The notes beneath the pieces were generated by a model that did no database searches, was not told where the DNA came from, and saw only the letters and a program-made list of their open reading frames with translations. The position numbers and the translations under genes were made by a program. A DNA stretch of 64,000 bases, from the NCBI GenBank assembly GCA_937925685.1, contig CALAMI010000010.1, positions 186,001 to 250,000 of the forward strand, in the 5' to 3' direction. Shown here in pieces: positions 12,858 to 57,003 of the stretch; position 1 is the first letter of the stretch, and each line of letters starts with the position of its first letter. This stretch comes from Candidatus Binatia bacterium. Its GTDB lineage: Bacteria; Desulfobacterota; Binatia; HRBIN30.

Positions 12858-14153
12858 ATGGTTGCTAACAAATTCCGCCCCGTGAAGCCGAACAGAGATA
12901 CTCCGACAACGCAGCAAAAAGGTTTCTTCCGGGTTGTATCTACTGAGCGGGCGCGGCAGCTTTTGGCGGCGGTCAAGGCAGTCGGCGATTCGGAGCTCAT
13001 TCCAGTGCAGGAGGCTGTTGGGCGCGTGTTGGCCGCCAGCGTAAGAGCTCGGGTGAACTTGCCCCACTTCGATCGTGCTGTCATGGACGGATACGCGGTT
13101 CGTGCGGCTGACACCTTCGGGGCGTCGGAAAGCCAGCCCATCTATCTCCGGATTCGAGGTACGATCGAAATGGGCAAGCCCGTACGCACTTCCGTGGAAC
13201 AAGGCACGGCGATGCGTATTAGCACGGGGGGCATGATGCCGCCGGGCGCTGACGCGGTGGTGATGGTGGAGTACACCGATGAACTTTCCGGCGGAATGGT
13301 CGAAGTTCGTCGCGCCGTGGCTCCTTGGGAGAACGTGCAACGGATCGGAGAGGACGTGGAGCGAGGAATGTTGCTCTTCGAAAAGGGATGGCGCTTACGA
13401 CCTTTTGACCTCGGTGGTCTGACGGGAATCGGTGTCACGCGTGTTCGAGTCATTCGCCGACCTCGCTTGGCTCTCATTGCCACCGGAGACGAGATCGTGC
13501 CGCCTACCGTTGCACCAAAGCCAGGCCAGGTGCGAAATGTGAACGAATTTGCCCTGGTCCCAATGCTGAAGGATGCAGGGGCAGAGGTCACGGACCTGGG
13601 AGTGATTCCAGACGACGCGCGAGTATTCTCCGACATGCTCGGGCAGGCCCTGGAGAAGCATGACGCGGTAGTGCTTTCGGGTGGAAGCTCCGTTGGAACG
13701 AAGGACATGGCCCTAGCAGTGATTAGTGCTTTTCCTCGGTCTTCTGTTGAGTTTCACGGGATTTCGATTGCACCAGGCAAGCCCACTATCCTAGCTTACG
13801 CACTCGGGAAACCGGTGCTTGGAATTCCCGGGCACCCAATGTCTGCCTTAGTTGTGGGGACGTTGTTCGCAGTGCCTTTCGTACGGGTGTTGGGCGGCGA
13901 AAAGCCCCTAACTGCGTTTACCCCGCGATCGAGAGTTACTGCCGCGCTCGCGCAACCTGTGGCATCGGCTCCCGGCCGCGAGGAATACGTGAGAGTCCGA
14001 ATCGAAGAAATCAATGGTGTTCGTCGCGCGGTGCCGATGCCAGGAAAATCAGCTTCTGTGTTTAACCTGATTCACGCCGATGGCTTAGTGCGGGTGCCAG
14101 CTCACGTAGAGGGATTGGAGGCTGGTGCACAGGTTGAGGTCATCTTGCTCTAG
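12858..14153 (+). CDS. moeA: Molybdopterin molybdenumtransferase MoeA
   Basis: MoeA inserts molybdate into adenylylated molybdopterin, the last general step of Mo-cofactor synthesis. In the 431-residue protein, residues about 25-425 show the standard features: HFDRAVMDGYAVRAADT, ATGDEIV, VLSGGSSVGTKD and PGKPTILA...LGIPGHPMSA. The first 30 residues are a polar extension absent from typical MoeA. A second, longer MoeA lies 3 kb downstream. The 3' end overlaps the convergent hydrolase gene by 14 bases. Confidence 0.95.
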   Translation: MVANKFRPVKPNRDTPTTQQKGFFRVVSTERARQLLAAVKAVGDSELIPVQEAVGRVLAASVRARVNLPHFDRAVMDGYAVRAADTFGASESQPIYLRIRGTIEMGKPVRTSVEQGTAMRISTGGMMPPGADAVVMVEYTDELSGGMVEVRRAVAPWENVQRIGEDVERGMLLFEKGWRLRPFDLGGLTGIGVTRVRVIRRPRLALIATGDEIVPPTVAPKPGQVRNVNEFALVPMLKDAGAEVTDLGVIPDDARVFSDMLGQALEKHDAVVLSGGSSVGTKDMALAVISAFPRSSVEFHGISIAPGKPTILAYALGKPVLGIPGHPMSALVVGTLFAVPFVRVLGGEKPLTAFTPRSRVTAALAQPVASAPGREEYVRVRIEEINGVRRAVPMPGKSASVFNLIHADGLVRVPAHVEGLEAGAQVEVILL

Positions 14154-15096
14154 TATCAAAGGGCACCTGACCCCTTCCCTTTTCCATACGGGGCAGACCC
14201 TTCTGACGGAGCCAGGACTCCAGAATGGCGTTGACCTCCTCAGGGTCCTCCTGCTGAACCCAATGAGACACGCCTGCAAGGTAGCGTAATTGTAGGTCCT
14301 GCACGAATCGTTCAGTACCATAGGTCGTTTCTTTCCCGAGCGCGTCATCCTCCTCGCCCCAGATCATCAACGTGGGCACGTCAATTGTAGGATAGCCCAG
14401 CGCCCGTTGCCGCTGTGCCCCTCCTCGCAGCAAGGCACGATAGTAATTCACCATCGCAGTCAACGCCCCGGGAATGGCAGCATAGTCTCGATACACATTG
14501 AGCACTTCTTCAGGGAAACGGGCTGGATTCCGACACGTTCTGAGAAAGCTCGCTTTAATCAGCCAGTAATCGGCAGATGCAAGTACCCATTCCGGAAGCC
14601 ATGGGAGCTGAAACAAAATTACGTACCAGGAACGCAAAAGCTGTTTGCCCCAGATCGCACGTTCCATGACAGCAGGATGGGGTACATTGAAAATCACCAG
14701 TGCGTCCAAGGGGCGCAGCCGCCGCATGGCAAAGTACCAGGCGACAAGCGCGCCCCAGTCGTGGCCAATCAACACCGTGTGCTTGCAACCACTCGCATCG
14801 ATCAACGCAGCTACGTCTCCGAGCAGCTGCTCGATGGAGTAAGCCTCTACTTCTGGTGGCCGTGAGCTTCCCCCATATCCCCGCATATCAGGTGCCCAAG
14901 TGCGGAATCCAAGGTTGGCTAGAAGTGGCAGCTGGTAACGCCAAGAATACCAACACTCAGGAAAGCCATGGAGACAAAGAGCGAGATGGTCGCCCGCTCC
15001 CATTTCAGCCACATGAAACTCAAGACCGTTTGCTCGCTCCGTCCGGTGCCGTGCACCAGCGATTTCGCCCGCATACCATGGCCCTTTTGACCTCAT
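14140..15096 (-). CDS. Alpha/beta hydrolase, epoxide-hydrolase-like
   Basis: A 318-residue alpha/beta-fold hydrolase. It contains the HGFPE oxyanion motif (LCLHGFPECWYSWRYQ), the DMRGYGGSSRP loop, nucleophile elbow IGHDWGALVAW (Asp nucleophile, as in epoxide hydrolases and haloalkane dehalogenases), lid segment with tyrosines, an acid in WGEEDDALG and the catalytic histidine in GVSHWVQQEDPEEVN. The Asp nucleophile and HGFPE favour epoxide hydrolase. I start at ATG 15096, just upstream of the conserved domain; ATG 15126 and open frame to 15366 would overlap the divergent gene. Confidence 0.83.
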   Translation of the reverse strand: MRSKGPWYAGEIAGARHRTERANGLEFHVAEMGAGDHLALCLHGFPECWYSWRYQLPLLANLGFRTWAPDMRGYGGSSRPPEVEAYSIEQLLGDVAALIDASGCKHTVLIGHDWGALVAWYFAMRRLRPLDALVIFNVPHPAVMERAIWGKQLLRSWYVILFQLPWLPEWVLASADYWLIKASFLRTCRNPARFPEEVLNVYRDYAAIPGALTAMVNYYRALLRGGAQRQRALGYPTIDVPTLMIWGEEDDALGKETTYGTERFVQDLQLRYLAGVSHWVQQEDPEEVNAILESWLRQKGLPRMEKGRGQVPFDTRAR

Positions 15097-17197
15097 GACT
15101 GCAACGTGTAATGGTAACGCCGTCATGATGCTACCACCCCACCGAGTTGCACGGCGGGGCTCGTCCCACTGCAGGACTAAGCACCGGCAATCATCTGCGG
15201 TCCGGGGGTCAAGGCGACATAATCGCATCGGTATCCCCTGGGTGGCTATTCTTGTGGGCCTCGTCTGGAGTGGGATAACTTTTCTGCTGCCCGCCGAGGG
15301 ACTTGCTCGGTCCGTCGTCCCTGTACCACTCGCATCGATGTGGCACGCTGCGGAGGCAGCCGTCATTGCCCGGGTCCAAGCAAAGACCAGCGGGAAGACA
15401 GATGCAGGTTCGATCTACACACGCCTGACGTTCGAGGTGCTCGAGGAACTTTTGCCAGTGCCGGTGCCGCAGCCGTTAATGATTGAGATGCCTGGCGGTG
15501 AGGCAGACGGGTGGGTCGAGGTGGTTTCGAATGTCCCAACTTTTGCCAAGGGGCAGCTTTACATACTGCTTCTCGCGCAGGTTGAAGGTCGTGGATGGCA
15601 GCCGTTGCAACTCGACTTAGGAGTTTTCTCGCTGGCGCCTAGTTCGGGGACTCGTCTGTTCGTCGGTCAGCCCCTTGTCATAAACGGTTCAGGAGGGGTG
15701 GCGGATGGCGGCACTTGGACGTGGGATGACTTTTGGCATCGGACCAGCGATGCGCGGCCCGCGGTGCGGGTGCCAAATTTGCGGCGCGAGTGGCTGGTGC
15801 TAAGTGAAGCCGCGCAGTTTCAATTCGGCCGCCCGGCCGCCCGGTTGTTTGAGTGCGACCAGGGCAATACGGTTCCCTTTGCGATCGACCCCAGAGGCGA
15901 CGGCGTGCTAGGTCCGGATGCCTCCCTTGCTGCGGTGGTTCAAGGCTTAGAGGCTTGGAATACAGTGGATGGCTCCTCCCTTCGGTTGGTGGACGGTGGG
16001 TATGCGGAAAGCCTCGAGACAGCCTGCCCCGATCCCACTGGCCAGTCGTTCAAGGTGAGGTTTCAAGACCCTGACAACATGATTCCTCCTCCAATTGATT
16101 GCAGGGGGATACTGGCTCTAACTAGCTACCGGGCCAATCTGAGCGAAACCAAACTGCTTGGCGGGCAGGAATTTGCCCGCATTCGGTGCGCGGTTGTCTC
16201 TTTTGCGGACGAGTGGGAACAGTGCCCGAACTGGAACTCCTGCAATCTTGCCGAGATCGCCACCCATGAGTTGGGTCATGCCATCGGACTAGGTCACTCA
16301 TCCGAGCGGGTGCCGGAGCCCAACAGTCGGTTGCGCGACGCAACTATGTACGTGCAAGCGCATTTTGATGGACGTTGTGCGGGTTTGCGCGAAGACGATA
16401 AGGACGCTGTTCGATTTCTTTATCCAGCGCTCGCCCCTCTTTCGGTTCTGGGCGATGTGACGCTTGTCCCTGCCTTAGCTGGTGCGCCGTACGCGCATCG
16501 ATTCGAGGTAGTCGCCGCAACCCCTCCAGTGGCGTGGCGTTTGGGTCGGTCAGATTATTGCGGACTCGAGCTTGACCAAACCGGACTGCTGCGCGGCCCG
16601 GTTGACGGTTGTCTTTGCTGGAGTCGCAGCATAGGGCCAGCCCCAACCCCGGCGCCAACACCCTACCTCTTCGTCACTGCCGAGGACGCAACTTGCCGGG
16701 CTCACACTCGCTTTTTTACCATTCCGATCGAGCTCCCCGAAGGGGGCAATGCCCCGTTGCCCAGTTGCACCCCAACGTCGGCGCCCCCATTGCAGCTTTC
16801 TCCGACTCCAACTCTGCCGATGCCGTGTACGTCCTCCTTGGCCCCGTCTCCCACCGCCTCGCCAACTGGAACCCCCACCAAGCCACCGGATTTGCTCTTT
16901 ACCCCCACGGCTACGCAGAGCATCGGCCCCTCCCCCGCGGTTCAAGCAACGTTGAGCGCAACGCCGTCGCTTACGCCGTCACCCCGCCCAACCGCCTCAG
17001 CCACGGTATCGTCAAGATGCACGGGCGATTGCGATCGGTCAGGGGTAGTGACGGTGGACGAGGTCGTGCGCATGGTCAACATTGCCCTCGGAACGTTGCC
17101 CCCAATGTACTGCCTTGCTGGCGACCGGGACGGCAACGGACAGATCACGGTTGACGAAATCGTCGAGGCAGTAAACTGGCTCCTTGTAGGTTGTTGA
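15095..17197 (+). CDS. Secreted matrixin-like metalloprotease with C-terminal EF-hand (dockerin-like) pair
   Basis: An exported protein of up to 700 residues. A basic N-region and one hydrophobic segment (about 49-70) form a signal peptide. The zinc-protease motif HELGHAIGLGH (His391, His395, His401) with a nearby RDATMYVQ Met-turn-like stretch marks a matrixin-like peptidase. A putative Ig-type domain (about 445-550) is followed by a Pro/Thr/Ser-rich linker (about 550-640) and a Cys-flanked EF-hand pair: GDCDRSGVVTVDEVV and DRDGNGQITVDEIVEAVN. The start is uncertain (ATG 15095 or 15125; neither has a good ribosome site). Starts of this gene and the divergent hydrolase abut. Confidence 0.8.
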   Translation: MTATCNGNAVMMLPPHRVARRGSSHCRTKHRQSSAVRGSRRHNRIGIPWVAILVGLVWSGITFLLPAEGLARSVVPVPLASMWHAAEAAVIARVQAKTSGKTDAGSIYTRLTFEVLEELLPVPVPQPLMIEMPGGEADGWVEVVSNVPTFAKGQLYILLLAQVEGRGWQPLQLDLGVFSLAPSSGTRLFVGQPLVINGSGGVADGGTWTWDDFWHRTSDARPAVRVPNLRREWLVLSEAAQFQFGRPAARLFECDQGNTVPFAIDPRGDGVLGPDASLAAVVQGLEAWNTVDGSSLRLVDGGYAESLETACPDPTGQSFKVRFQDPDNMIPPPIDCRGILALTSYRANLSETKLLGGQEFARIRCAVVSFADEWEQCPNWNSCNLAEIATHELGHAIGLGHSSERVPEPNSRLRDATMYVQAHFDGRCAGLREDDKDAVRFLYPALAPLSVLGDVTLVPALAGAPYAHRFEVVAATPPVAWRLGRSDYCGLELDQTGLLRGPVDGCLCWSRSIGPAPTPAPTPYLFVTAEDATCRAHTRFFTIPIELPEGGNAPLPSCTPTSAPPLQLSPTPTLPMPCTSSLAPSPTASPTGTPTKPPDLLFTPTATQSIGPSPAVQATLSATPSLTPSPRPTASATVSSRCTGDCDRSGVVTVDEVVRMVNIALGTLPPMYCLAGDRDGNGQITVDEIVEAVNWLLVGC

Positions 17198-17257: not shown

Positions 17258-19174
17258 ATGTCGCGAGTACGCTTCTTGGAAAAGCGCAGTCTCCGTGAAA
17301 CTCTAGACGTTTTCGTCAACCAGGCTGCTATTGTGCCCCGAGTCGAATGCGTGGCGGTTGAGGCTAGTCTAGGCCGCGTCCTGGCCGAGCCAATCTTCGC
17401 GAAAATCTCTGTACCTCATTACCATGCCGCAGCCATGGATGGGATCGCTGTGAGGGCTGCGGACACGTTTGGGGCTGGCGAAACGTGCCCGCTTCGGTTC
17501 AAGCTTGAAGGAGACGAGCGACGCTTTTGTTTTGTGGACACCGGGCAGCCGTTGCCACCCTGGGCCGATGCTGTGATTATGATCGAGCAGGTGGTGTCAG
17601 TCGGAGCGGGGGAGGTCGAGATCCGCCAACCCGCGACCCCGTGGCAGCACGTGCGCCTTGTGGGAGAGGACATAGTTGCCAGTGAGCCGTTACTGCCTCG
17701 TGGGCATCGAATCCGCGCTGTTGACGTTGGTGCCTTGCTTGCCGCCGGACACCTTGAGGTTCCGGTTGCACGTAAACCTAGTGTGGCGATCATCCCTACG
17801 GGAACAGAGTTGATTGAGCCTGGACAACCGCTGACGCCGGGCACGATCATTGAGTTTAACTCTCGAATGGTTTCCGCCTTCCTTGTTCAGTGGGGCGCTG
17901 AGCCCCATCGCTATCCGCCTGTAGCCGACGACCGAAAAGCGCTGCGCGCGGTACTGGAAGAAAGTGTTCGTCATCATGACATCGTCACGTTGATCGCGGG
18001 TTCGTCCGCTGGCGAACGAGATCACACGGTCGAAACCCTTCGCGACGTTGGAGAGGTTTTGGTGCACGGAATCGACGTCATGCCCGGAAAACCTGCGATT
18101 TGCGCGCGCGTCGCGTCGAAACCTGTGCTCGGGTTGCCGGGGTATCCGGTGTCCGCTGCCATTGTAGCTATGCAAGTATTGAGACCTCTGGTTTTGCGGC
18201 ATCTCGGAGTGGCGGCCACTGATCTTCCCCGGGTTGCGGCCACCTCTCCGAGAAAAATCCCGTCGAAGCTAGGGATCGAAGAATTCGTACGGGTAACCTT
18301 AGGCGTCGTTGGGCGGAAGGTTATTGCACTGCCGTTGCCACGTGGGGCAGGTGCCATCAGCACGTTGGTGCGAGCGGATGGCTTTCTGAGGGTTCCCGTA
18401 GACAGCGAAGGGGTACAAGCTGGCGAGAAGGTGCGGGTAGAGCTCCTCAGGGATTGGTCAGAGATCGAAAATACAATTCTCGTTGTCGGCAGCCATGATC
18501 TGACCCTCGGTTTTCTGGAGGACGCACTGAGGCGCACCCACCCGGAGTTGCGCCTCGCATGTGCGAACGTGGGGAGCTTGGCCGGCCTTACAGCTTTAGC
18601 GCGGGGGGAGACTCACGTAGCAGGCACCCATTTGCTTGACCCGCACACCCGGACTTACAATTTGCTGGATGTCGAACGTGTAACTGGTCGGAAATCTGTG
18701 GTTGTCGTGCGGCTAGCCTGGCGGGAACAAGGCTTAATCGTTCCGCCCGGGAACCCGAAACGAATTCAAAGTGTACGCGATCTCGTTCGGTCTGACGTGA
18801 GGTTTGTAAACCGCCAGCCGGGTGCAGGTACACGGGTGTTGCTTGACGTGTTGTTACGTCATGAGGGTTTGGACCCGACGAAGATTCAAGGATACGAACG
18901 CGAGGAATTCTCGCACATGGCGGTGGCCGTGAGCGTAGCAAGTGGCTTGGCAGATTGCGGAATCGGCCTCCGCACTGCTGCTGCAGCCCTCGGTTTGGAT
19001 TTTGTGCCGTTGGAGCGCGAGGAGTACGATTTAGTTTTTCGCCGCGACTTTTACCGTAGCCGCCGTGGCCAATGGTTGATCCAGGCCCTGCGCTCGGACG
19101 AGTTTCGGCAGCTTGTTGGTCAGCTTCCTGGGTACGATGTCACAGACGCTGGTACTCTGAAACCGTGGAGCTAA
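17258..19174 (+). CDS. moeA: MoeA fused to a periplasmic-binding-protein-like domain
   Basis: A 638-residue two-domain protein. Residues about 1-405 are MoeA (HYHAAAMDGIAVRAADT, PTGTELIEPGQ, IAGSSAGERDHT, MPGKPAICA...LGLPGYPVSA). Residues about 410-638 are a PBP-like domain (VVGSHDLTLGFLEDAL, NRQPGAGTRVLLDVLL, GLADCGIGLRTAA) as found in MoeA-PBP fusions. That domain, in families such as ModE-linked regulators, is thought to bind molybdate/tungstate or a ligand; here this is inference. With the upstream moeA it forms the common two-MoeA arrangement, separated here by two unrelated genes. Confidence 0.93.
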   Translation: MSRVRFLEKRSLRETLDVFVNQAAIVPRVECVAVEASLGRVLAEPIFAKISVPHYHAAAMDGIAVRAADTFGAGETCPLRFKLEGDERRFCFVDTGQPLPPWADAVIMIEQVVSVGAGEVEIRQPATPWQHVRLVGEDIVASEPLLPRGHRIRAVDVGALLAAGHLEVPVARKPSVAIIPTGTELIEPGQPLTPGTIIEFNSRMVSAFLVQWGAEPHRYPPVADDRKALRAVLEESVRHHDIVTLIAGSSAGERDHTVETLRDVGEVLVHGIDVMPGKPAICARVASKPVLGLPGYPVSAAIVAMQVLRPLVLRHLGVAATDLPRVAATSPRKIPSKLGIEEFVRVTLGVVGRKVIALPLPRGAGAISTLVRADGFLRVPVDSEGVQAGEKVRVELLRDWSEIENTILVVGSHDLTLGFLEDALRRTHPELRLACANVGSLAGLTALARGETHVAGTHLLDPHTRTYNLLDVERVTGRKSVVVVRLAWREQGLIVPPGNPKRIQSVRDLVRSDVRFVNRQPGAGTRVLLDVLLRHEGLDPTKIQGYEREEFSHMAVAVSVASGLADCGIGLRTAAAALGLDFVPLEREEYDLVFRRDFYRSRRGQWLIQALRSDEFRQLVGQLPGYDVTDAGTLKPWS

Positions 19175-19204: not shown

Positions 19205-21073
19205 TTAAGGGTCTGAGTGTGCCCGCAACTCCGTGGAAGTATTTCGAGTTGCGGAGGAGAAATCTGTTTCCCAGCAAGCGAAATCATTCACAAGCTGCAC
19301 TTTTACGGGCAGGTTCATAGGTAGGGACGGTGGCAAAAAGTTCGATGTGGTGGCTTTCAGAACGATGCTCGCTCGACCGTCGGCGCCGCTGCGAAGTTGA
19401 AGACGTGTAACTCCTGTGGGCAGGCCACTAACATTTGCGTAGCGGAAACCTGCGCGCGTTCGCGCCCAACAGGCCCTCCCGGAACAGAACCCGCCGGCGG
19501 CGATGTTCCTTTGCCAGGACAGCGTCGGCTGGCCAAACTGAGTGTCGTAAATACAAAGGTCGTAGTCCGTTGCGCCGCGGGGGTCACCGAACAATGTAGG
19601 ATCCGTGTTTTGCCCTCGGGTCCAGTGCCACACCAAGCGAGGTGGGCGGTTCGAGGGGCGTCCGATGCGCAGCACGCTGGCACCTGGTGTTGTAGGGCGT
19701 TTGCAGCCTGCCCGGGGATTGGCCCCACCAACACAAGCCCCGCCGATGCACTGATCCGGATTGGTGCAACGGTTTCCGTCCGAACAAGCAGTTCCATCGG
19801 CTCGAGGCGACCCCACGCAAGCTCCCGACAGGCACTGGTCTGCTTCTGTGCAGTCGTTGCCATCGTCGCATGGTGTACCGTCTGCCACGCCATCACATGA
19901 GGTTCCAATGAGCGTGATCGTTACCTGATATGCACCAGCGCCGCCAAAGGCGTAGACCAGCGCGGACCACGGGCCACTGTGCGGAGCCGTAAAACGGCAG
20001 ACCGCCATCGGGCTCGAACCTTCGTCCTTGCAGTCGTAGCTCGAGCGGCTCACCCCCGCGCTACCAAGGACGTACAAGTCAAAGTCCCGTGTTGCGTTGG
20101 AGGTCACGCGTAACTCAGTGGTCCGTGGCGGAACCTGAAAATCATAAAGGACCGCATCTCCGCCGCTAAGGGTACCTGTATACTCGAGAACGGTCACCTC
20201 AGGATCGCCGATTTGGGGCCCAGTGCCACAAGTCGTAGCGTTCAAATCAGCGCCCCCATGGGTTCCGATCCAACTTCGGTAAGTATAAACATTGGCATCG
20301 TAACTATCGTCGGGCGGAGCGCATGTGTTACTACTGCCTCCGGAGGTAACCCCGGCCAGAAGCGGGCCAGTGCCGAAATCAATGAACAAGGGGCCTCCGG
20401 AGTCACCATTGCAGGTGTTCGAGTTGGTCGGTGGGGGGCCTAAAGGCGTGCGGAAGGCCCAACAGACTGAGGTGTCCGATGAAATACCGTTTGTACAGTT
20501 GGCGGTTACGACCGAACCATAGCGCTTCAAACCGTAGTCATTTTTACCGCCCCCAGTAAGCCCATACCCAACGATGATTCCGCTCGTTCCCACCGGTGGA
20601 CTGATTGCGTCGTTGATTCGTGACGGGCGCACATTCTCGGCCGGGGAGGCCAATTGCAGCAATGCGACGTCGCCGGTTGGGAAATCGAAGTCAGTGCGGA
20701 TGGCGATGCTTTGCACCCCCAACATACCGACGTGAGGAAGGAAGACGAAGTAGCGACTGGGGTTTGGAGCTCCTCCTTGACCTGGCTGGCAATTCGTCCC
20801 AACGGTGTCGCACACGCAATGCGCAGCGGTGAGGAAGCTTTTGCAACCGATGAGTGTTCCGCTACACTTGCCGATGGCGTTTTGTGTGGAAGCAGTGGGG
20901 CTGAAAAGAAGTGCCCCCACCGTTGGATAGCCCCCGGTGGCAAGACCGTTCACGATAGGATGGTCGCTGCTTGGGAGAGTTTCCCCCGAAGAAACGGAGC
21001 TAGAGAAAGCAGCCCAAAAGAGCGCTACAGCGACCGACGAATGTTTCGACCAAAACCATGCCTTCCCGTGCAC
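19205..21073 (-). CDS. Secreted trypsin-like serine protease with prepeptidase-type and Cys-rich C-terminal domains
   Basis: A 622-residue exported protein from GTG 21073, chosen because AGGAGGAAAATTT precedes it exactly. It has a signal peptide (about 1-30), then a trypsin domain with activation site IVNG (40-43) and catalytic His85 (TAAHC), Asp135 (GDVALLQL) and Ser225 (GDSGGP). A PPC-like domain (about 290-395, DFDLYVLG...) follows. Next comes a repeated Cys-rich stretch, two CxxGxxC-type units around DGTPCDDGNDCTEADQC and DGTACSDGNRCTNPDQC, and a beta-rich C-terminal region. The substrate is unknown. No EF-hand pair is present, unlike other exported proteins nearby. Confidence 0.87.
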   Translation of the reverse strand: MHGKAWFWSKHSSVAVALFWAAFSSSVSSGETLPSSDHPIVNGLATGGYPTVGALLFSPTASTQNAIGKCSGTLIGCKSFLTAAHCVCDTVGTNCQPGQGGAPNPSRYFVFLPHVGMLGVQSIAIRTDFDFPTGDVALLQLASPAENVRPSRINDAISPPVGTSGIIVGYGLTGGGKNDYGLKRYGSVVTANCTNGISSDTSVCWAFRTPLGPPPTNSNTCNGDSGGPLFIDFGTGPLLAGVTSGGSSNTCAPPDDSYDANVYTYRSWIGTHGGADLNATTCGTGPQIGDPEVTVLEYTGTLSGGDAVLYDFQVPPRTTELRVTSNATRDFDLYVLGSAGVSRSSYDCKDEGSSPMAVCRFTAPHSGPWSALVYAFGGAGAYQVTITLIGTSCDGVADGTPCDDGNDCTEADQCLSGACVGSPRADGTACSDGNRCTNPDQCIGGACVGGANPRAGCKRPTTPGASVLRIGRPSNRPPRLVWHWTRGQNTDPTLFGDPRGATDYDLCIYDTQFGQPTLSWQRNIAAGGFCSGRACWARTRAGFRYANVSGLPTGVTRLQLRSGADGRASIVLKATTSNFLPPSLPMNLPVKVQLVNDFACWETDFSSATRNTSTELRAHSDP

Positions 21074-50345: not shown

Positions 50346-51719
50346 CTACACCGAGGCTACGGGACATTGGCCTAGGGCCTCACGAACCGACCGGACAATC
50401 TCATCGACCGTAACCCGCCCGTCTCCATCGTAATCCACTTGCCAACACGAAATTGGCGGCTGTTCCTCCAATAGGGCACGAACAGCACCAACAAGTTCGT
50501 CTACGCTTACTGCCCCATCTTCGTTACAATCGCCCACACACCGCGGCCATCGGCGAAAGATGGAAACCGCATCGTCGTACTGGGCTGCCACGTAAATCCA
50601 CCGTCCTGTGGGATCCAGGCTCAGCGCCGCGGCCCCGGCTAGCCCGTCTACGCTACCCTCGTCGTCGCGTAAAGCGTCGATCACTGTGAGCGAGCCCGTC
50701 TGACGGTCACGCTCGAGAAGCACGAGCACGTCATCACCGCCCCGGGTTAGCAAAACTGCCGATCCTTGAGGCGAGATGGCGATTTCCGTCGGCGCTGAGG
50801 ACTCGCCGTAACCAACCACTTCCGGACCAGCCAGTGCATCGATGAAGCCGAAACGCCCTTGGCCACGGTCACGGAAATGGGCTACCCCGTTCATCCCTAG
50901 GGCGTACACGTCAAGTCCATCCGGCGAAACAGCCACGGAAATCGCACCGTCAAGACCGGATACATTGCCGACCCCTTCAAGGAAAATCTCTTCTGCAAAA
51001 AACATTGTGGAACTCCTATCGCGCCGAAAGTGAACCAGGGAGCTTGATCCACTACTGGTGACAAACAAATGGGAGCCGTCGGGGGAGACGGCCACTGCAG
51101 TGGGGCGGATCAGTCCGCTCACCTCACCGCCCTCGCTGCTGTCTCGCACGACTTGTGAAACGTTTAGCTTTCCGGAAAGCCTATCCCGCTGTAGAACAGT
51201 TACGGCATTGTCGCCGTAGCTTGCGACCACGAGCTCTTGGCCGTCGGGCGATAAGGTCAAACCATGGACCTGGGTAAGACCAAATTGACCACGGGGACCT
51301 CCAAATAGGGCTTCCACGAATTCTAATTGGCCGCTGACTGGGTCGCGCGCAAACACAGCAACGGCGTCACCGAAAAACGCGCCAACGTAAACGTGTGTGC
51401 CGTCTGGAGAAACGACGACGCGTACGGGCCGGAACAGCCCCCGCACTACGCCACTCTGATCCAAATGTGCTTCCGCGAAGGTTACCCAGCCGGTCACGAG
51501 GTCGCGGCCGAGGACGACGATTGCATTGTCATCGAAACTAACCACGTACACGTTGCGTCCGTCTGGGCTGACGGCAACACCATGCGCGCCCCGGAGGTGA
51601 TAGTTGTTCTCCGGATCGGCCAGCTTGCCTACGAAACCTAAGCGCCCGGCTGCCAGCCCGCTGGGAAATGCAGCCAGGAACAAAGCGCCCACGATGAGGA
51701 TTCGGGTAACGGATTTCAT
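50346..51719 (-). CDS. Secreted 7-bladed propeller (lactonase-like) protein with C-terminal EF-hand pair
   Basis: A 457-residue exported protein with signal peptide (about 1-23) and a YVTN/6-phosphogluconolactonase-like propeller of repeated GxAVSPDGxxVYV-type blades (AHGVAVSPDGRNVYVVSF, RVVVSPDGTHVYVGAF and others). The C-terminal 60 residues are a Cys-flanked EF-hand pair (GDCNEDGAVSVDELV, DYDGDGRVTVDEIV). This tag matches those on the matrixin-like protease and on MbnH/MbnP nearby. The start overlaps the flavin reductase stop (ATGA), although AGGAGG is also present upstream. Confidence 0.85.
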   Translation of the reverse strand: MKSVTRILIVGALFLAAFPSGLAAGRLGFVGKLADPENNYHLRGAHGVAVSPDGRNVYVVSFDDNAIVVLGRDLVTGWVTFAEAHLDQSGVVRGLFRPVRVVVSPDGTHVYVGAFFGDAVAVFARDPVSGQLEFVEALFGGPRGQFGLTQVHGLTLSPDGQELVVASYGDNAVTVLQRDRLSGKLNVSQVVRDSSEGGEVSGLIRPTAVAVSPDGSHLFVTSSGSSSLVHFRRDRSSTMFFAEEIFLEGVGNVSGLDGAISVAVSPDGLDVYALGMNGVAHFRDRGQGRFGFIDALAGPEVVGYGESSAPTEIAISPQGSAVLLTRGGDDVLVLLERDRQTGSLTVIDALRDDEGSVDGLAGAAALSLDPTGRWIYVAAQYDDAVSIFRRWPRCVGDCNEDGAVSVDELVGAVRALLEEQPPISCWQVDYDGDGRVTVDEIVRSVREALGQCPVASV

Positions 51720-54342: not shown

Positions 54343-55680
54343 CTAGCAACCAGCAAGCAACGCATGGATACCTTGTAGAATCTCCTCGATGGTGGGATCA
54401 CCGTCCCCGCTGGGGTCGGCTGACAAACAGACAGCCAGAGAACTTTCCCCTAAGGCAATATTCACTGCACGGACCAACTCATCGACCGTTACCACGAAAT
54501 CGTAGTTGCAATCACTGACACAGCCCCACAGTTGGAAGGGATCACTCAAACGCGGGTTCGTAACGAACTCCGGATCGTCCAGCGACTGCAAAAACGCTAG
54601 CACTTGCTGCTTCTCTTCCTCGGTGATGACAAACCCTCTAATAAAGTTACTCTTGTAGGGGTTTTTCGAACCATCGCCAGCGTAAGGCCCGCTATGAATC
54701 CTACGACCACCGGCAGCGTAGTGGTCAATCACTTCTTCTAGCGTCGCAATGCTTCCGTCGTGCATGTAAGGTGCGGTGTAGCTGAGGTTTCGCAGAGTTG
54801 GGGCCTTGAAACGTCCCATGTCAGAAGGGATGCGGGTGATTTCGAACAACCCGGTGTTGTCTGGAGGATAAGCGCCGCGCCCATCGATGTTGTACAGGCC
54901 GTTGTTTTGGAAGGAAGTTTCGTCGAACGGATTGCCCTCGTGCGTCACCGATGCGGTGAAGTTAAAACCACCGTGGCAATGGAAGCACTCCAGCCTTTCG
55001 GAGAAAAACAACCTGCCCCCGAAAAATGCTTCCTCCGAAAGCGCGTTGTCATCGAGCCCTTGGACGTACCGGTCATAAGCACTGTTCCCAGAAATCAGGG
55101 TTCGCTCGAAGCTAGCAATAGCTTTCACGATATTACCCAGCGTAAATGGGTCACTCTGACCGCGAAACGCCTCCGCAAACATCCTCTGGTACCGCAGGTC
55201 CGCCCGCAACCGGTCTACGAGTTCCTCTTCTTTGCCACTGAGGCCCAACTCAACCGGGCGCTCGTTAAACATCGGTACCAAAGCCTGCCGTTCCAAAGAG
55301 TCTAATAAAGGATTGGCCCAACCAAGGGCAGTTGCGTAGGCTACGTTCGTTAGGCTCATCGCGCTGCGTGGATGAATTTCTCCTGTGGAGCCAACCGCGC
55401 GGGGACGACCGTCGGTAAAGGCGCGGGCCTGCTGGTGACAAGACGCACACGACTGCGAGAGATTTCCTGATAGCCGGACGTCGTAAAAGAGAAAACGCCC
55501 CAAAGCAATTTTCTCGATGCTTAAGGGGTTATCTGCGGGAATCCGTGGTTTGGGAAAACCTACCGGCAGCTCAACCGCGTAAGAACGTTGAGCTTGCAAG
55601 TCTTCCGCGGCCCAGGCTAAGCAATGCAAAAGGCTCAACGCCGCAATGTAGATTGCCGAACCTCGGATGCGTCCGAGCAA
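54343..55680 (-). CDS. mbnH: MbnH-like di-heme enzyme (MXAN_0977 type) with C-terminal EF-hand pair
   Basis: A 445-residue exported MauG/cytochrome-c-peroxidase relative. It starts at TTG 55680 after AGGAGGT. CASCH at 78-82 and CFHCH at 232-236 are the two hemes. Family-specific strings include LGRFLFYDVRLSGN, SGEIHPRSAMSLTN, and RFKAPTLRNLSYTAPYMHDGS. MbnH oxidises a tryptophan in MbnP to kynurenine, letting MbnP bind copper. The C-terminal about 65 residues hold a degenerate Cys-flanked EF-hand pair (DCNYDFVVTVDELV, DPSGDGDPTIEEIL), an unusual addition. mbnP is 20 bases upstream, so they are coupled. Confidence 0.9.
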   Translation of the reverse strand: MLGRIRGSAIYIAALSLLHCLAWAAEDLQAQRSYAVELPVGFPKPRIPADNPLSIEKIALGRFLFYDVRLSGNLSQSCASCHQQARAFTDGRPRAVGSTGEIHPRSAMSLTNVAYATALGWANPLLDSLERQALVPMFNERPVELGLSGKEEELVDRLRADLRYQRMFAEAFRGQSDPFTLGNIVKAIASFERTLISGNSAYDRYVQGLDDNALSEEAFFGGRLFFSERLECFHCHGGFNFTASVTHEGNPFDETSFQNNGLYNIDGRGAYPPDNTGLFEITRIPSDMGRFKAPTLRNLSYTAPYMHDGSIATLEEVIDHYAAGGRRIHSGPYAGDGSKNPYKSNFIRGFVITEEEKQQVLAFLQSLDDPEFVTNPRLSDPFQLWGCVSDCNYDFVVTVDELVRAVNIALGESSLAVCLSADPSGDGDPTIEEILQGIHALLAGC

Positions 55681-55700: not shown

Positions 55701-56666
55701 TTAATGGTGAGGCTCCACACGGAAAAACTTTTGCAGACCAGCAACTGGTTGGCCAGAAGCAAAGTCTACGCCCAAGTTTCGCAGTAAAACATTGCAGTCG
55801 TCATCCCCAGGGTCAGACATACACCCAGGAGGCGTGCCTTCCTTATTTTCGTTCAGATCGGAGTCCGCCAGCAGTGCGGCTAGGTCCGCAACGATGACGT
55901 CATCCTCCACGGAAAATGGCCTCAAGATGACCTCAGCCCGATTGGGTCGCGCACAGCCTCCCACCACCCCAGGCTGGGCGAAGTAACAACCAGTGGAGCC
56001 AAGGTGGATGTGGTAGGCGTCTAGCGCAGTGTCGACGCGGAGAAACTTGTAACCAGCCTGCCAGCTCCAGAACATGCTGGTTAGGCTCAACGGAGGAGGC
56101 GCGACCGACGCGTCGCCATGGTTGCGACGAAATGGCACCCCTAGGACAAAGCGGATCCCGTTGTACGCACCCGGAGCTACGCGTCCACGGACGGTTTCAT
56201 TTGTCTGCACCGTTCCGTTCACGCACGGCGAGGTTTTGTTTTCGAAGTCGAGCAACGCGACGTCTTCGAGTTGCCACACACCATCTTGGTCGAGCAGGAC
56301 GGCGACCTCGCGGTCGTCGCTCGTTAAGAGACGAACGTTCGACACGTAGAAGCGAAAGTCGGAGGGGACAAACTCTCCCCCATTCCTGCCCACGCCGGAA
56401 TACGTGGTGCCACACTGGAACGGTTCCTGACCCACCCGACCAGCAAAGCGGATTGCTACCGGCACATGGCCACAACCCTCCAGGATGTTGTTGACGCCGG
56501 CGACGAGTTCATCGACGGTCACCTGTCCGTCACCGTTGCGGTCCCCAGCACACTGGCCGTACCGGTCAAAGCGCCCGCTCGTATCCGTGGCCTGAGCGAC
56601 ATACGCGCCTGGGCCCGATACGGCCACAGCAAGAAATAGTACCAACGTTCTCATCCACGGTTCCAT
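55701..56666 (-). CDS. mbnP: MbnP-like copper-binding protein with N-terminal EF-hand
   Basis: A 321-residue exported protein of the four-cysteine MbnP family. Signal peptide about 1-27; then a single EF-hand (Asp42, Asn44, Asp46, Glu53) between Cys39 and Cys65, which ordinary MbnP lacks. The body has FRFYVSNVRLL, SPCVNG, SMFWSWQAGYKFLRVD (candidate Trp200/202 for kynurenine formation), DAYHIHLGSTGC (His219, His221, Cys227), GGCARPN and a C-terminal GC...DDDC pair. ATG 56666 is chosen over 56672 and 56654 because GGAGG sits 6 bases before it. It precedes mbnH in one transcript. Confidence 0.88.
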   Translation of the reverse strand: MEPWMRTLVLFLAVAVSGPGAYVAQATDTSGRFDRYGQCAGDRNGDGQVTVDELVAGVNNILEGCGHVPVAIRFAGRVGQEPFQCGTTYSGVGRNGGEFVPSDFRFYVSNVRLLTSDDREVAVLLDQDGVWQLEDVALLDFENKTSPCVNGTVQTNETVRGRVAPGAYNGIRFVLGVPFRRNHGDASVAPPPLSLTSMFWSWQAGYKFLRVDTALDAYHIHLGSTGCYFAQPGVVGGCARPNRAEVILRPFSVEDDVIVADLAALLADSDLNENKEGTPPGCMSDPGDDDCNVLLRNLGVDFASGQPVAGLQKFFRVEPHH

Positions 56667-57003
56667 GTACACCTCCGTTGCACGCGAATTCTTTTCTACC
56701 TCGCTATCCGTATCGTGCCGGCTCGTCCGCTATGGTTAGTACCTCGCCCTCTGCTGGGCACGCGAACCATTTGCCAGTATTCTGGTCCTTGTGTTTCCCG
56801 GCTACTGGTTTCTGGCACGGAAAGATAGGTCATAAAGCCAAAAGCGGCTCCACGGTAGAGACTTACGCTGCAGGTACCATTGCATTTGTTCTCCTTGCTG
56901 ACCGGCAAAGCTCGAGACCTTCCCCGCAAGCGCAATCCGCAGTCAAAGCGACGGCGCAGCACTTTTAGCACTTCGTTCCAGATTTACCTCCACCTTCGCG
57001 CGT
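56667..57003. other. Intergenic region between mbnP and the small lipoprotein gene
   Basis: 337 bases. A 91-codon minus-strand frame (56696-56971) has an arginine-rich beginning and no family match; a short stretch (RGAAFGFMTYLS) looks faintly like a membrane protein but ends quickly. I see no clear gene. Promoter of the mbnP transcript is expected here. Confidence 0.4.

Follow-up and report, generated by a model that had tools for sequence, protein, structure and literature searches.

Why should unrelated secreted proteins share one small, cysteine-flanked pair of calcium loops? The question is raised by the 64,000-nucleotide stretch of a Candidatus Binatia bacterium analysed here, which is called the window. 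An earlier note had described such a module on three of its proteins, and it is present on all of them as described, with 59 residues in each. The secreted matrixin-like metalloprotease (15095..17197, + strand; 700 residues; Peptidase_M10 27.7 bits, cut-off 24) has a Pro/Thr/Ser-rich linker followed by module 1 (17018..17194, + strand; C-T-G-D-C...GC), which reaches the final codon before the stop. The secreted lactonase-type beta-propeller (50346..51719, - strand; 457 residues; Lactonase 80 bits, cut-off 21.7) carries module 2 (50364..50540, - strand), located 5 residues short of the C-terminus and with the pattern C-V-G-D-C...V-S-V-D-E...C...D-Y-D-G-D-G...V-T-V-D-E...A-L-G-Q-C. In the MbnH-family di-haem enzyme (54343..55680, - strand; 445 residues; TIGR04039 502.5 bits, cut-off 362.85), module 3 (54346..54522, - strand; C-V-S-D-C...GC) is appended C-terminal of the enzyme domain and also extends to the final codon. 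The three 59-mers align without gaps, and the matrixin and MbnH copies share 49% and 47% identity with that of the propeller. The MbnP-family copper-binding protein (55701..56672, - strand; 323 residues; TIGR04052 263.2 bits, cut-off 140) has a half module (56472..56552, - strand). The single loop ascribed to it is confirmed as one Ca loop and helix flanked by C...GC; its position is immediately after the signal sequence and not at the C-terminus. Pfam and NCBIfam assign distinct host domains to the four proteins (Lactonase, Peptidase_M10, MbnH and MbnP), and the carriers are indeed unrelated.

Two genes at 12858-14153 and 17258-19174, which are presumably MoeA-like molybdopterin genes (named from the sequence, with no profile scan), flank the matrixin gene and an alpha/beta-hydrolase ORF. 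The start of the matrixin ORF overlaps this hydrolase ORF (14140-15366) on the opposite strand. A secreted trypsin-type protein of the window with a PPC domain (19205-21073) has no module; another trypsin-type protein, encoded outside the window (L054), has one at its C-terminus.

The module is an internal repeat. In an alignment of 47 copies, from which modules below 55 bits were excluded, both halves consist of a Ca loop, with mostly Asp or Asn at positions 1, 3 and 5 and a hydrophobic residue at position 8, and a helix after it. Residues 4-25 and 36-57 have a mean identity of 48%, against 9% for shuffled sequences, and loop position 12 is Glu in 45/47 copies of one half and 44/47 of the other. 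The cysteines were tabulated for 49 copies of this genome and 120 of its relatives, with partial modules excluded and a Cys a few positions off accepted. Cys5 and Cys32 are present in all 49 own copies, and Cys5 is missing from a single relative copy. Cys1 and Cys59 are paired in their occurrence: in this genome 43 copies have both, 2 have Cys59 alone and 4 have neither (Fisher P 7e-5), and in the relatives the numbers are 116 with both, 1 and 1 with a single one, and 2 with neither. One of the single cases (L244) is truncated by the end of its stretch, and related copies are not independent of each other. Disulfides Cys1-Cys59 and Cys5-Cys32 are inferred, and the halves of relative copy L223 and of MbnP look individually clasped.

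The fold was predicted with AlphaFold2 for module 2. The model (mean pLDDT 90.8) contains only two helices, 13-23 and 45-57, each following a loop. The model lacks entering helices and shows two loop-helix (F-hand) motifs as in dockerins, not a calmodulin-like EF-hand pair. In a Foldseek comparison with the PDB, dockerins alone fill ranks 1-21 (prob 0.95-1.0, E 0.02-0.29), whereas the listed EF-hand proteins have prob <=0.20; no match of the module reached E<=0.001. E-values of this size are usual for so short a chain. VIA-align likewise places only dockerins at ranks 1-23, with Z of 2.5-7.3 against 2.1 for EF-hand chains. Since Z below 8 is modest, the weight rests on the clean separation of dockerins from EF-hand chains and on full-length coverage. 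When the module profile is searched against the PDB by sequence only, EF-hand proteins come first (best 1.2e-5) and the dockerin 6kgc_B follows at 0.031, and for this reason the family is easily misread. The earlier note had called the module an EF-hand pair, and this identity is not upheld: besides the missing helices, dockerins outrank all listed EF-hand structures, and the Pfam EF-hand matches of the window proteins are all below cut-off. The EF-hand_1 cut-off is exceeded by one carrier, L062:5726-7162 (26.9 vs 25.4).

The resemblance to type I dockerins, also proposed earlier, stands in predicted fold and fails in family membership. Like the type I dockerins (PF00404; 1ohz_B, 6kgc_B, 2vn5_B), the module comprises two 22-residue repeats of Ca loop and helix in a similar predicted fold, and it is placed terminally on secreted proteins bearing linkers. 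Dockerins have Asp at loop position 12, as is also seen in the ordinary dockerins of this genome. In contrast, the module has Glu at this position and four conserved cysteines, and none of the four window proteins matches Pfam Dockerin_1 (PF00404) at E<=1. PF00404 has 8 over-cut-off matches in the genome, and only 2/50 module copies (C5:123333 and C28:60542) are among them. The module therefore lies outside Pfam Dockerin_1 as that model draws its boundary.

Searched with a 3-row profile of the window copies, the 3.70-Mb genome yields 50 module copies (E<=1e-3) on 49 ORFs, a recurrence beyond chance. According to a simple script, 30/50 copies are no more than 20 residues away from the C-terminus, and 15/50 are near the N-terminus, at most 40 residues after a hydrophobic segment. 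The script judges hydrophobicity crudely; it missed one further N-terminal copy that was recognised by eye (L060:5088-7550), and four basic tails that it flagged are, by eye, the module helix itself. The remaining four copies are internal or in fragments. A strict C-terminal sorting signal is ruled out by the N-terminal copies. Pro/Thr-rich linkers are common beside the module. The carriers scanned with Pfam (43/49; 6 were left out) contain FG-GAP, NHL and other propellers, trypsin- and subtilase-type proteases, matrixin, LCAT-type lipases, an MtrC/MtrF-type cytochrome, cytochrome P460, MbnH, MbnP, DUF3604, and a lectin-like domain. Glycoside hydrolase families were not found at E<=1e-4 in 37 carriers, nor over cut-off in L050, L051 and the four window carriers. 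The MtrC/MtrF-type outer-membrane cytochrome (L075:6130-8763) has an N-terminal module and would add extracellular electron transfer to the client functions.

A dockerin-like module calls attention to cohesins. The earlier note had seen none in the window, and no window ORF matches the clade cohesin profile; cohesins are encoded elsewhere in the genome. The genome-wide collection that it had recommended delivers the module copies, and a profile built from the cohesins of the clade adds 15 cohesin domains (E<=1e-3), of which two lie in genes containing an internal stop. The clade profile contains 40 rows: stretches with unread letters or below 60 bits were dropped, and of the 42 left, L131 (another order) and L132 were removed by hand. 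It matches crystallised cohesins of the PDB with a best E of 3e-15 (6kgc_A). PF00963 also detects cohesins of this genome, with 93.9 bits for the three-cohesin lipoprotein L049. One cohesin unrecognised by Pfam, in a MYXO-CTERM protein (L052:5748-6176), was predicted by AlphaFold2 with pLDDT 95.4, and all 50 rows listed by Foldseek for it are cohesins or cohesin-containing chains. In sequence homology and predicted fold, the clade cohesins therefore resemble cellulosomal and non-cellulosomal cohesins (6kgc_A; 2xdh of Archaeoglobus). Unlike these, they have two cysteines that are invariant across the 40 rows (eight from this genome), and Pfam scores several of them below its cut-off or fails to detect them.

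The module-free cohesin ORFs of this genome have diverse ends. The L049 scaffoldin of 801 residues combines a lipobox-like signal (LTGC) with three cohesins and a long linker of Pro and Thr, and a 166-residue protein has an N-terminal membrane segment. Two ORFs have MYXO-CTERM or MYXO-CTERM-like tails, one above the model cut-off; a further ORF ends in a hydrophobic and basic segment, another in a Lys-rich tail, and the reading frames of the last two are broken by stops in the assembly. The tail of L052:5469-6410 reaches 22.6 bits with TIGR03901 (cut-off 20), while L051 (17.1), L133 (15.3) and L134 (15.2) are below it; the cohesin proteins L053, L139, L049 (two proteins) and L127 gave no TIGR03901 match. 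On the module ORFs, neither the script nor inspection by eye found MYXO-CTERM-type or other anchor tails. Large multi-cohesin proteins are present in the relatives G002, which is of the window's genus (L174, seven cohesins), G007 (L179, five) and G013 (L181, five), among others.

The comparison with MYXO-CTERM/myxosortase sorting (PMC11980579, as far as the source was available) shows both a likeness and a difference. Some cohesin proteins have the Cys motif, hydrophobic helix and C-terminal Arg cluster, and a related CPBP protease is in the genome; however, the tail would anchor the socket rather than the client, and the protease is under the model cut-offs. The Mrt-like protease of this genome scores best with MrtP (109.7, cut-off 250), has 96.7 vs 100 with Mrt_core, and is under every myxosortase cut-off. 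MrtX-like proteases occur in 14/15 genomes of the order vs 1/24 in the rest of the class, all sub-cut-off, and such matches are also found in 4/14 control genomes.

Two cohesin genes, L064:5927-7798 (C7:335743-336180) and L167 (C23:30691-31128), are broken by in-frame stops or frame breaks in the assembly. The cohesin protein of L064 has a MYXO-CTERM-like tail, and its gene neighbours a subtilase-type module gene. Three cohesin proteins (L164:4330-5358, L127:4806-5762 and L173:4679-5689) have C-terminal tails rich in Lys, Pro and Thr but lack an obvious membrane anchor at that end; these tails are perhaps an alternative envelope attachment.

Modules and cohesins are encoded close to each other. 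Nine of the 11 cohesin loci of this genome have a module nearby: five encode it in the cohesin ORF itself and four at a distance of up to 2.5 kb. The expectation from module density on the contigs concerned is 0.066 per cohesin locus (binomial P 1.2e-9). The 11 loci include C8:187594, which was found by PF00963 only, just below cut-off. Among the relatives, a module is present at equally short range (same ORF or up to 2.5 kb) for 18 of the 30 loci in which a cohesin was detected; 34 loci had been fetched, 4 of them without a detected cohesin, and one of the 30 is from outside the order. These loci were hand-picked from cohesin match lists and are not exhaustive. No module is found within 2.5 kb of the other 2/11 own and 12/30 relative loci.

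Several layouts recur. A lipoprotein scaffoldin is encoded with a single cohesin and a module protein in G000 and G002, with variants in G003, G004, G007 and G010, the modules of G003 and G004 being weak. The order module, module, cohesin, module is found in G010 and, minus the last gene, in G000. A protein with a cohesin between two modules lies beside a two-cohesin protein in G000, G001, G002 and G013. In proteins of the module-cohesin-module type, loop positions 11-12 of the first half are Asn-Glu in 8/8 distinct copies; of the client copies (n=59), 29 have Asp-Glu and 8 have Asn-Glu. Only copies of 59 residues entered these counts, and the number of client copies is by coincidence the same. 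An orthogonal adaptor class is only a lead, because the eight copies come from five genomes, three of which belong to one genus. In a separate protein, L050:3442-5946, a cohesin near the N-terminus is joined by a Pro/Thr/Ser linker of more than 550 residues to a C-terminal module.

MbnH modifies MbnP, and this pair allows the module to be compared with its absence. Among the over-cut-off MbnH proteins fetched, 8/9 of the order end in the module vs 0/4 outside it, the latter all from one family (f9). Three further over-cut-off genes are not in these counts: G011 C4, with a partial module match, G039 C88 and G004 C119. Sub-cut-off MbnH relatives are without the module, two of them inside the order (G006, G008). 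The half module of MbnP lies beside MbnH in four genomes of the window's family (this one, G001, G002 and G004), and alone it is unable to form a full dockerin. In family f9, the MbnP genes of G025 and G045 begin with a lipobox-like signal, while that of G039 is neither lipobox-like nor fused. In G045, outside the order, MbnP and MbnH are fused in one ORF of 693 residues with a lipobox-like start (L301:4205-6283). The lipid anchoring or fusion of these relatives may therefore be substituted by the module in this genome. This suggests alternative ways of keeping MbnH near MbnP, namely docking here and a lipid anchor or gene fusion in the outside family.

The same comparison bears on the possibility that the module has no partner and is a calcium- and disulfide-stabilised protective cap for the ends of secreted proteins. 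Small, Cys-rich domains with Ca loops can be mere stabilisers, the terminal placement suits a cap, and the sequence-only search favours EF-hand proteins. On the other hand, the four outside MbnH proteins, albeit of one family, manage without the module, the predicted fold is that of a dockerin rather than an EF-hand pair, the internal repeat is the dockerin pattern, and cohesins adjoin and fuse with modules. A mere cap is thus unlikely. It overlaps with the ordinary-dockerin alternative considered below, and the odds assigned to the readings therefore do not sum to one.

Each of the 14 further genomes sampled from the order has the module, with 12-149 copies apiece; some of these counts are lower bounds. 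The module is thus present in 15/15 genomes of the order vs 2/24 in the rest of the class, where there are only 2-3 weak matches. An even sample of the phylum has it in 3/297 genomes: this one, one of the order, and one with a weak match. Two peptide patterns were searched in named genomes, and from the best 80 of 99 matches 78 loci were retained; among these the labels are mostly bacterium HR30 and MAGs labelled Deltaproteobacteria, with some only bacterium or Candidatus Binatia. The patterns are tight, and absence from other named genomes is therefore not shown. A contig labelled Terriglobia bacterium SRVP_19 (L230) has a module at 53% identity, by transfer or in a mislabelled MAG. The window is inferred to belong to the HRBin30 order of Binatota or close to it, and this order is reported from thermal springs in the available parts of PMC8262859.

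The clade cohesin follows the same distribution, with 15/15 genomes of the order vs 2/43 others (one weak match each). Co-occurrence in one clade may reflect a single shared ancestry. In another reading, the cohesins could serve the few ordinary Dockerin_1 proteins while the Cys module only shares their secretome. Dockerin_1 matches at E<=1e-5 are found in 15/15 genomes of the order, although this count pools ordinary dockerins and Cys modules, and a G007 protein (L180) has an ordinary dockerin beside a cohesin. The Pfam cohesin model, moreover, matches 15/15 genomes of the order and 6/43 outside, and five of the six have Dockerin_1 matches. However, of the 12/43 outside genomes with Dockerin_1 matches, only G030 (E 6.8e-4) has a clade-cohesin match, and hence the clade cohesins track the Cys module and not Dockerin_1. 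The nine own cohesin loci beside or within Cys-module genes, and the cysteine-stabilised design common to module and cohesin, also speak against this partnership, which is quite unlikely. Finally, a sorting signal for secretion or for a sortase-like machine, with the cohesins unrelated, is very improbable: C-terminal placement in 30/50 copies, lineage restriction and many unrelated hosts are how sorting tags behave, but the 15/50 copies (and one by eye) behind an N-terminal hydrophobic segment are unlike a C-terminal tag, the model is a folded dockerin-like domain, and the classical MYXO-CTERM sorting tail is found on the cohesin proteins instead.

The best reading is a non-cellulosomal, cohesin-dockerin-like system of surface docking that uses a disulfide-clasped variant of the dockerin for non-carbohydrate clients. 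It is judged likely, though well short of certain, with binding and localisation inferred. Its computed basis is formed by the module copies, the dockerin-like fold prediction, the homology and fold prediction of the cohesins, the adjacencies and fusions, and the co-occurrence in the lineage. The earlier suggestion of a docking or attachment tag gains support from the dockerin-like fold prediction and from cohesins, several of them apparently anchored, that adjoin or fuse with module genes. What is inferred is the binding itself, its dependence on calcium, the disulfides, the location at the surface and the advantage of keeping MbnH close to MbnP.

In the proposed mechanism, clients would be exported via their own signal sequences and would fold with Ca2+ and disulfides. 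The plug would be made of two Ca2+-loading loop-helix halves, with Cys1-Cys59 clasping its ends and Cys5-Cys32 joining the halves. The putative sockets are the cohesin domains with their conserved Cys pair, in tandem on a lipoprotein or placed on proteins with MYXO-CTERM or other membrane-anchor tails. Propellers, proteases, cytochromes, MbnH and MbnP would plug into these envelope-fixed cohesins without individual anchors. If the cohesins are anchored in the envelope, the secreted clients would consequently be retained at the cell surface or within the outer envelope, and proteins bearing both domains may act as adaptors that could branch the assembly. The step from fold to binding is inferred by analogy with known cohesin-dockerin pairs, and the step from tail to surface by analogy with MYXO-CTERM proteins (PMC11980579, seen in part).

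Non-cellulosomal cohesin-dockerin docking is already known, and the disulfide-clasped system is judged a variant of it. A multi-cohesin scaffoldin, as in L049 and the large proteins of G002, G007 and G013, is a feature of the cellulosome, but a cellulosome was ruled out here because no dockerin-bearing glycoside hydrolases are among the 43/49 carriers scanned. Systems of the non-cellulosomal kind are described, in the parts of the papers available, for ANME archaea (PMC9012536), Cloacimonadota (PMC8542988) and Planctomycetes, the last with the Planctosome of Nemodlikiaceae (PMC6461901). They are likewise predicted assemblies beyond cellulose degradation in uncultured microbes, with protease and binding-protein clients. 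In contrast, those parts describe no Cys-clasped dockerin, no 50-150 copies per genome, no MYXO-CTERM anchoring and no MbnH/MbnP clients. The words dockerin, cohesin and cellulosome do not occur in the main text of the Binatota genome paper PMC8262859. A literature search pairing the stem Binat with dockerin or cohesin domain gave, among the matches listed, by title only cellulosomes and gut bacteria. For this lineage, the matches listed contained no report of Cys-clasped dockerins at comparable copy numbers together with conserved-Cys cohesins and MYXO-CTERM anchors.

A wider proposal remains tentative and falls somewhat short of an even chance: an order-wide, probably Binatota, plug-in display of the secretome, with disulfide-locked pairs, myxosortase-type and lipid anchors, and tens to more than 100 interchangeable non-carbohydrate clients for metal handling, electron transfer, proteolysis and propeller functions, together with a second tier of orthogonal module-cohesin-module adaptors. 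An anonymous Cys-rich repeat of an uncultured lineage becomes a testable protein-protein docking code, mostly missed by the Pfam models used. If the docking reading is true, it would offer disulfide-stabilised and perhaps heat-stable pairs for protein engineering. Cohesin-dockerin docking would here serve copper proteins and cytochromes, not plant fibre, and the client list would chart the proteins on the surface of these bacteria.
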